From assembly GCF_000003815.2 (NCBI RefSeq), contig NC_049982.1, positions 33,013,746 to 33,077,745 of the forward strand: a stretch of 64,000 bases of DNA, read 5' to 3'. The notes under the pieces were generated by a model. It did no database searches. It saw only the letters and a list, made by a program, of their open reading frames with translations, and had not been told where the DNA came from. This document shows positions 22,301-27,849 of the stretch, piece after piece. Every line of letters starts with the position of its first letter. Position 1 is the stretch's first letter. Source of the stretch: Branchiostoma floridae (taxonomy: Eukaryota > Chordata > Leptocardii > Amphioxiformes > Branchiostomatidae). A program made the translations under genes and the position numbers.

Positions 22301-25300
22301 TTTTGATGTTTTCGGCCCCAAAAAACAATGTAATCCTAATTTCAATCAAAATCCCCTCGGACAAAAATGATAAGTATGAGGTAGGCTTTCATCCTTTAGA
22401 ATATCATGATTGGAGGTCTTGTTTCCAGCTGGGCATAGACCCATGAAATAAACACCACTTTTTTAACCAAAATGTGTATTTCTAACCCAAAATCCGGTAT
22501 GTAGAAAACAAAATCACAAGTATTCAATGTGTTTCAAGTAGTACTAAAACTGTGTGAAGTTTCATTGTAGTGCGACCGAGCAATCAAAAGTTACATTCAT
22601 ATGTATAGAATACCACTTTACTACAAGCCTGGGCCGCCTTAAACCAACCGAGTGAGATACTGTAAATGTAGAAATGTTCGCGGTGGATTAATGTTCGGTG
22701 ACCACTTCACCGCGAACTTAAAACCACCGCGAACATTTTTCTATTATGGTATTAGACTACAGTCTATGGTGTTACTGCGAAATTTAAACCTTCGCGAATA
22801 GTCCTTTTTCCCGCTACCACGAATTTAAATCCCCGCGAACTTAAATGCATTTACAGTACCAGCCTGGCCGCAGGTACAAATGTAGGACTGCCAGAGGGCC
22901 AAAGGGCTGGGATCTGATACACTGTATAACTGTTGTCTTTTATTTATGTCATGCCCATGCAAGGAAACACACGTTTCAATGAGACATTTGCCAGCAATAC
23001 CAACGTCCAAATCCGGTGTGAATGACGACTGCACTCGGCGAGTGCGTTCAATTTATATGATGGAAATCCGTGTGATGCAGGTAGAGCCCTGTATGTGTGT
23101 GTGTGTGCGTGTGCGTTTGTTCTTGTGTTCAGGATGGCATATGTCTTTCCTCAGTTAAGTTGTAGCACTAATCCGATGGTGTTGCCCATACTAGTGTTGT
23201 GACCATGGCCTGTAGTCCCAGTGGGAGCAGTTTTGTTTGTGGGATGGCCAGACAGACTGGGAGTATAGAGGGAAGACTGCAGATGTGGGATATGAAGACC
23301 ATGAAAGTACAGGTAAACAAGGCAGCCCTTGATATTCTCTTTTAGCGATAAGTACACTCAGGTAGGTACACTTCACCTTTAGGTGCCCAGAATTAGTTTT
23401 GTAAGCAAAACCTGTTGACAGGTGTTGAGGCTTGCAAAATTCTATAGCAAAGTAAGACAACAACGAAGGTATTATCAGGGTTGGACAAGTCCATTGGCAA
23501 TTGAAAGTGCTGATCAGGCAGGCATGTTTGCTACGGTAATTACCCAATCAGGCCAATGCAAATTTTCCATGTGTCATATTTTTCCATGGGCACAAATGTA
23601 GATATGGGTTGATATTGGTTTAGTATTACTGTATAGTAGTACATGTAGTTGGTTTATGAAGGTTTGGATAAAGGAATTTCCTTGTTGCATTGCATACATC
23701 ATGTATATAGAAATAATGTGATGTTTGAATTAGATTTTTGGGGGCAAGAGAATTTTTCAGAACTTGTCTTATCATGATTTATAATGCTCTTCTTTCTGAC
23801 ACTTAAATGTTAATGTATTTGTTATGCTGTATACAATAGTATCTTTACAATATACACAAATATCCAGATTCACTGGTGCATTCACATTAAATGAATGAAT
23901 GACCTTTTTGTACATTTGTGCTCAAACAAGCTAAGTACAGGTGGTAGCGCTAGTGATAAGGTACAATTTTGACAAAAAGGTATCTTATCATCTCTACATA
24001 TGCTAATACATTCTAGTATGTACAAGTTCAACTTCTTCTCGCTTCTCAAAACAGTTATAAACATAAGGACAGATGGAATCAATAATGTATGGTTTATCTA
24101 GGTGCATGAGAAATATGAATTAGGTGCACAGCTCCAATTTTGGGTGCCAATTTTGGTACCAGTAAAGCTGTGGGTCCAAGAAATTAGATTCCTATGCCAT
24201 AAGGAATTAAAATATCATAGATATGATAAACAAATCATTGCAAACAAGTAAAAACTGCTCGAAGCAAATTAATTCCTTTGTGTTTTACCAGTGTCCAGCA
24301 AATGTCTTGTCCATTTTTCCAGCGAGAGCTGCCCCTTGACCCTCCATCTGTGTGTGCCAACTGTACAGCTTTCACTTTCAACGGACACCTGCTGGTCAGT
24401 GGAGCATCCGATGGAGTCATCAGGCTCTACGGTAAACAATGTTACATTTTGCTTTTACCAGGGCTCTAGCCAGCTCGAATTTTTTTTCCGTCAGCCAATT
24501 CCCATTGTCGCGAAAACCACGAAAACACTATTCCAGGAGTTAGAAAGACTAAACTGAGACCTTGAAAATCTGTTTTTTAATAATATTATCGTATACGAAA
24601 AGGCGCTGACACACACATCGTCAACAATGATAAAAATAGCAAAACAAACAGTGTGGCGTCTACGGCCGTGGACGGCGTCCCCAAGCCGCCTGTAGCTTCC
24701 ACCAAGGATTTTTGTCCATCAAGGTTGGCGGATTGGTTTTAAAATTTCTCCGTCACTTGCAGCAAATTTCCATCAATTGACGGAAAAACGGACGCTGGCT
24801 AGAGCCCTGGCTTTTACTAACTTTTATTTCAACAGGAGAATTCCTGCTGTCACTCAAAAGGGCTTCTTTGTTGGCACGCAGGTAAGATCGGCTGAGGGTT
24901 GGATGGCGATCCGACCAGTGGCATGGTTTGGACTGAGGGTGATGCGGAATACACCATTTTATATTTTATCCATGATACATTTTCCCTACCCGAGAAAACA
25001 CTTGTTTCAATGCAAGATGTGCCTGTAAGGGATAAAATTTAGCATCCTTAAACAAAAAATTGAGAACATCAATTCCAACATCCGAATTCACTTCAAATTT
25101 TCGACAGCTGGGCATGCTGACTGTTAAATCATTTCATGGAAGCTTGTGCAAACGTAACATACAGACCTTTTCAGAACATCCATATCGATCATTATCCCAG
25201 CCCTGGTATGACGTAAAACTTGTTATGTGTTGACAGATGCAGCGGTATGACTGCCTGATGAGTTGGCAGGCCCACAGTGGAGAGGTGTACTGTACTGTAC

Positions 25301-27849: not shown

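Follow-up and report, generated by a model that had tools for sequence, protein, structure and literature searches.

Eight near-identical tandem units, each consisting of the 3' end of an intron and the start of the following exon, stand at one acceptor site of WDR91 in the amphioxus Branchiostoma floridae, and every one of the seven upstream exon starts runs into a premature stop codon. The most convincing reading by a wide margin is that this is a mirage, a minisatellite of an exon-intron boundary, in which the last acceptor is used and the seven decoys are removed as intron. The array was analysed within a 64,000-nucleotide stretch of genomic DNA, contig NC_049982.1 from 33013746 to 33077745 (hereafter the window), and coordinates refer to positions in the window except where another stretch is named.

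We established the identity of the gene and its exon structure from the reading frame. Twelve C-terminal exons, annotated from 16499 to 27849, form one open frame of 466 codons with a stop at its end. The propeller part (326 residues) matches WDR91 (PDB 8shj, E = 2.3e-138), and further WD repeat-containing protein 91 structures were also matched (8kb8 and 6vyc); on this protein match the gene is WDR91, as an earlier note on this DNA had proposed. The exons that bear on the arrays are as follows.

16499-16675, plus strand: WDR91 exon with a repeated donor, the real donor being the first copy, 16675|16676 (placed by frame)
17356-17518, plus strand: WDR91 exon joined in frame from 16675 (placed by frame)
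24323-24431, plus strand: preceding WDR91 exon, its final base being the G of a split Asp codon G|AT (placed by frame and 8shj alignment)
25909-26021, plus strand: real WDR91 exon of 113 nt, its acceptor in the last copy and its donor gtactt (placed by frame and 8shj alignment)
26600-26797, plus strand: following WDR91 exon (placed by frame and 8shj alignment)
27697-27849, plus strand: last WDR91 coding exon, including the stop codon (placed by frame and 8shj alignment)

The alignment to 8shj is gap-free across the joint between 24323-24431 and 25909-26021. Because this joint is made via the last copy of the array, the real exon start lies in that copy, and the protein is complete at the joint. 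The number 17 that had been given to this exon is plausible; here it is the tenth of the 12 annotated C-terminal exons. A candidate exon at 24835-24882 was dropped, as 24431 and 25909 join in frame with nothing between them and the resulting protein matches WDR91 when the candidate is left out. At 9079-10480, KRR1 (minus strand, with both KH domains) lies head to head with what is apparently the first WDR91 exon (plus strand), the two starts being within roughly 130 bp or less of each other, and a promoter shared by the two genes is likely.

Two features describe the acceptor side.

25213-25965, plus strand: acceptor-side mirage array, eight units, each an intron 3' end followed by an exon start (TRF, unit listing and shuffle control)
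25237-25861, plus strand: seven decoy exon starts, at 25237, 25329, 25423, 25515, 25607, 25711 and 25805, each followed by a stop

TRF reported the array as one row (period 94, 7.9 copies, score 1207), overlapped by rows with periods of 104 and 5. The units are arranged head-to-tail with starts at 25215, 25304, 25398, 25490, 25582, 25686, 25780 and 25884, giving lengths of 89, 94, 92, 92, 104, 94 and 104 bp for units 1 to 7. Each contains an acceptor (...TTGACAG) followed by the first 55 or 57 nt of the exon, and the acceptor AG is present in all eight. The intron end spans 25 nt (AAAACTTGTTATGTGTTGTTGACAG), apart from copy 1, where it spans 22 nt and 3 nt are missing just 5' of the AG. Exon starts come in three forms: ATATGCAG in copies 5-8, ATATACAG in copy 2 only, a form that the earlier note does not mention, and ATGCAG, which lacks two bases, in copies 1, 3 and 4, such that four of the seven decoys carry ATATGCAG or its one-base variant. 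After the common core, copies 1-7 continue with the pentamer GTACT, repeated two or four times, and then GT into the next AAAACTTG; the differences in unit length are partly due to this variation in GTACT count. Copy 8 alone extends through the whole exon to the donor at 26021|26022, restoring the conserved frame. The description in the earlier note, of an acceptor and exon start in eight tandem copies with the full exon and donor confined to the last, is therefore borne out.

The copies differ little from one another, their cores showing 0-3 mismatches and at most two gaps. Copies 3 and 4 are identical over 92 bp and each of the other six cores is unique. The last 25 intronic nucleotides are identical in seven of the eight acceptors, with a pyrimidine content of 0.55 (0.50 in copy 1), in the low part of the range for ten other annotated acceptors (0.50-0.80). 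Since this stretch is the same in 7/8 copies, nothing within the final 25 nt marks the last acceptor as a better site. When the 2-kb stretch around the array was subjected to 100 dinucleotide shuffles, TRF reported no array with a period of 25 or more, and only two rows in total (best score 53). A DNA search of the assembly gave a single place, the window's own locus, and hence no second allele for comparison.

We then considered the consequences of decoy use. When 24431 was joined to the upstream acceptors one at a time, a stop followed within 4-33 codons in 7/7 cases, counting the split Asp codon, with the earliest stop (4 codons) in the short class. Upstream copies continue into repeat sequence and meet a stop there, so that no useful frame exists even in the copies that had been described as frame-keeping. 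The proposed division of upstream copies into two kinds thus holds for their length but not for their coding consequence. Likewise, nonsense transcripts are the outcome that the frame supports for all seven decoys, whereas the suggested alternative protein isoforms are excluded, on this allele, as products of simple acceptor choice. The stops that follow the decoys end 116-771 nt upstream of this exon's donor, or 314-969 nt upstream of the last junction. Under the usual 50-nt rule, stops farther upstream than this lead to nonsense-mediated decay, and transcripts made through the decoys would be substrates for that pathway because their stops lie beyond the limit.

Such an outcome could in principle be put to use, with unproductive splicing at the decoys sending transcripts to nonsense-mediated decay and copy number thereby setting WDR91 output. 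All seven stops lie beyond the 50-nt limit relative to the donor of the exon, and the final 25 intronic nucleotides are shared by seven of the eight copies; both are what this proposal calls for, but we consider it improbable: an upstream acceptor requires an exon of 217-785 nt rather than the real 113 nt, and no sign of selection for regulation was seen in the sequence. Two papers also state, for the genes they treat, that mirages apparently leave regular splicing unaffected (Ebner et al., PMC3087553; PMC3902484), on which account the WDR91 decoys are expected to be ignored, and the first adds that mirage lengths differ among haplotypes.

The end of each unit offers a second signal, GTAAAA, a possible weak donor that would define potential single-unit exons of 65, 67 or 77 nt. 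Exonisation through this site, tried for single units, failed in 7/7 cases with an early stop. From GTAAAA to the next acceptor there are only 24-27 nt, which is too short for a usual intron. Both results weigh against the idea that the array is an intron in the making, in which a central unit is recruited as an exon and the units separating it from the old exon are converted into a new intron. The GTAAAA at every unit end is what this idea would need, and a model of this kind has been published (Ebner et al., PMC3087553); we nonetheless regard it as very unlikely for WDR91, while noting that it is compatible with the reading that the last acceptor is used.

A second array, which the earlier note does not mention, lies at a donor of the same gene.

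16666-17140, plus strand: donor-side mirage array in WDR91, nine copies (TRF and copy listing)

TRF reported 8.9 copies at 16678-17140 (score 863). The first unit is 57 bp long and the rest 52 bp, except one of 51 bp, and each comprises the last ten exon bases, GGCTGCACAG, plus about 42 nt starting at the donor gtcagg. Extending the exon to any of the eight later donor copies brings a stop as the 12th codon beyond 16675, and among the nine copies only the first joins in frame to 17356-17518. Two of the eight decoy donors have lost their GT, with GA found after 16992 and after 17095. The two WDR91 arrays are alike in that the usable site stands at the edge of the array, adjoining the exon body.

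To place these arrays, we compared them with repeats already described in lancelets. The two papers report mirages at the boundaries of amphioxus Adh3, globin, TnC and PGBD5 genes (PMC3087553, PMC3902484), the lancelet PGBD5 repeats at 5' and 3' splice sites and the TnC repeats being likened to mirages (PMC3902484). The WDR91 arrays likewise consist of tandem units across an exon-intron boundary in an amphioxus, and their duplicates carry splice signals, with one full boundary at the edge (AG in 8/8 acceptor-side copies, of which copy 8 is complete). Judged by features readable from the sequence, they belong to the amphioxus mirage class. One close likeness is to the B. floridae globin gene BflGb6, where, in the account cited (Ebner et al. 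2010, PMC3087553), an intron 3' end and exon 5' part are also repeated and the exon-side copy alone is complete. BflGb6 differs in unit length (150-160 bp versus 89-104 bp in WDR91), in the number of duplicates (6 and 3 in two haplotypes versus 7) and in the reported similarity of its units (81-100% identity versus cores with the few mismatches and gaps given above). As in WDR91, the Adh3 mirages are minisatellites across the exon-intron boundaries of one gene; their units are of 10-72 bp, and somatic length instability has been reported (Canestro et al. 2002, as related in PMC3087553 and PMC3902484). The PGBD5 repeats are called imperfect by their authors (PMC3902484), whereas the WDR91 copies are nearly identical. 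In the literature searched, no paper combined WDR91 and amphioxus. The class has thus been described before, a point that the earlier note does not make; the present analysis adds the WDR91 locus, a second mirage at a donor of that gene and, in a helicase-like gene, a donor repeat of two copies (L006, below).

We also looked for boundary arrays elsewhere in the assembly. A globin search returned nine places, and TRF reported five arrays with a period of 20 or more in these stretches. One of them (L030) covers the globin match: it is an acceptor-side array with a 158-bp unit and four exon starts, that is, three duplicates plus the real copy, and runs into a globin exon. As judged by architecture, it agrees with the published BflGb6 mirage (PMC3087553). 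TRF found no array over the globin match in the other eight stretches, and the remaining four arrays (L025-L028) have about two copies of 20-25 bp.

These comparisons also bear on whether a misassembly made the WDR91 array or altered its length. The copy count may be off, given the identity of copies 3 and 4; a run of N occurs in the window at about 20123-20222; and the BflGb6 array is described as aberrantly assembled in the genome draft of that time (Ebner et al., PMC3087553). Still, there is only a very slim chance that the array is an assembly artefact, considering that six of the eight cores are unique, that the last copy joins an intact exon and that the globin array in the present assembly, with its three duplicates and real copy, matches one haplotype in that account.

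In a random survey of 20 stretches of 10 kb (200 kb, all from the first 14.5 Mb of contigs C1-C16), we counted 20 TRF arrays with a period of 25 or more after collapsing overlapping rows, of which at least one straddles a boundary; the survey is small and this count, covering recognised cases only, is a lower bound. The case found (L006, 5161-5248 of its stretch, minus strand) has a 42-bp unit in 2.1 copies that holds an exon end and donor, CCTCCTG|gtaagt. The exon that it interrupts encodes ...YVLFGPPG, and the nucleotide-binding motif GPPGTGKT is restored at a later acceptor, ttccag|GCACAGGGAAG. Once joined, the peptide has a Pfam match to AAA_11 (E = 6.8e-11), and SMUBP-2, Aquarius, NAM7 and UPF1 are the closest relatives with solved structures. 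The unit is open over its 14 codons, so splicing from the second donor would add 14 residues without changing the frame.

The window itself, which was chosen for its finding, contains six arrays with a period of 25 or more, including the two in WDR91. Among its other repeats are a pentanucleotide array, TACTA, with 18 copies at 62409-62500 (TRF) and a 13-bp tandem repeat, CTGGGCTGTCTAC, present at 34221-34271 and 35075-35125 in opposite orientation; the two places are separated by about 850 bp and may mark the ends of a mobile element. Long open frames with RVT_1 reverse transcriptase domains occupy 36701-39421 and 43183-45708, the latter also carrying Exo_endo_phos_2; both look to be of the non-LTR type.

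To gauge how often an array would meet a splice site by chance, we placed units randomly in the 11,351 bp of annotated gene, which has 22 edges, and asked for at least 8 bp on each side of an edge. An edge was spanned with a probability of 0.072 for a 52-bp unit and 0.148 for a 94-bp unit, or 0.011 for both together; this statistic is post hoc, and any targeting of arrays to splice sites is a hint only. Chance placement combined with tolerance may suffice to put arrays there.

Taken together, the results are best accommodated by a history in which a short segment straddling the 3' splice site of this WDR91 intron was tandemly duplicated and grew to eight units. The initial duplication may have occurred at a homology of a few bases: GTA is present in both exon and intron at the unit joint, which would be compatible with slippage or with duplication by end joining, unequal exchange acting thereafter. 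Turnover would keep the units nearly homogeneous. The repeats would be tolerated, and the array harmless, as long as one intact boundary persists at the exon-side edge, which is all that selection should require. By exon definition, the last acceptor would be paired with the donor 113 nt downstream and the seven decoys spliced out as intron. Copy number is probably unstable, and polymorphism in it at WDR91 is likely, by analogy with the two BflGb6 haplotypes.

WDR91 is a clean case of a mirage, in that the reading frame permits only the last of eight acceptors and only the first of nine donors. It therefore provides a natural test of how splicing chooses among equal neighbours, and it also tests the published proposal that mirage repeats seed new introns. 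A broader conjecture, to which we lean less than to its opposite, is that boundary arrays occur often throughout the amphioxus gene set and can strike donors and acceptors alike within a single gene. If so, the amphioxus genome would hold many natural experiments on competition between near-identical tandem splice sites, the choice being made by nearness to the exon's partner site and not by site strength, and copy number differing among alleles and cells.
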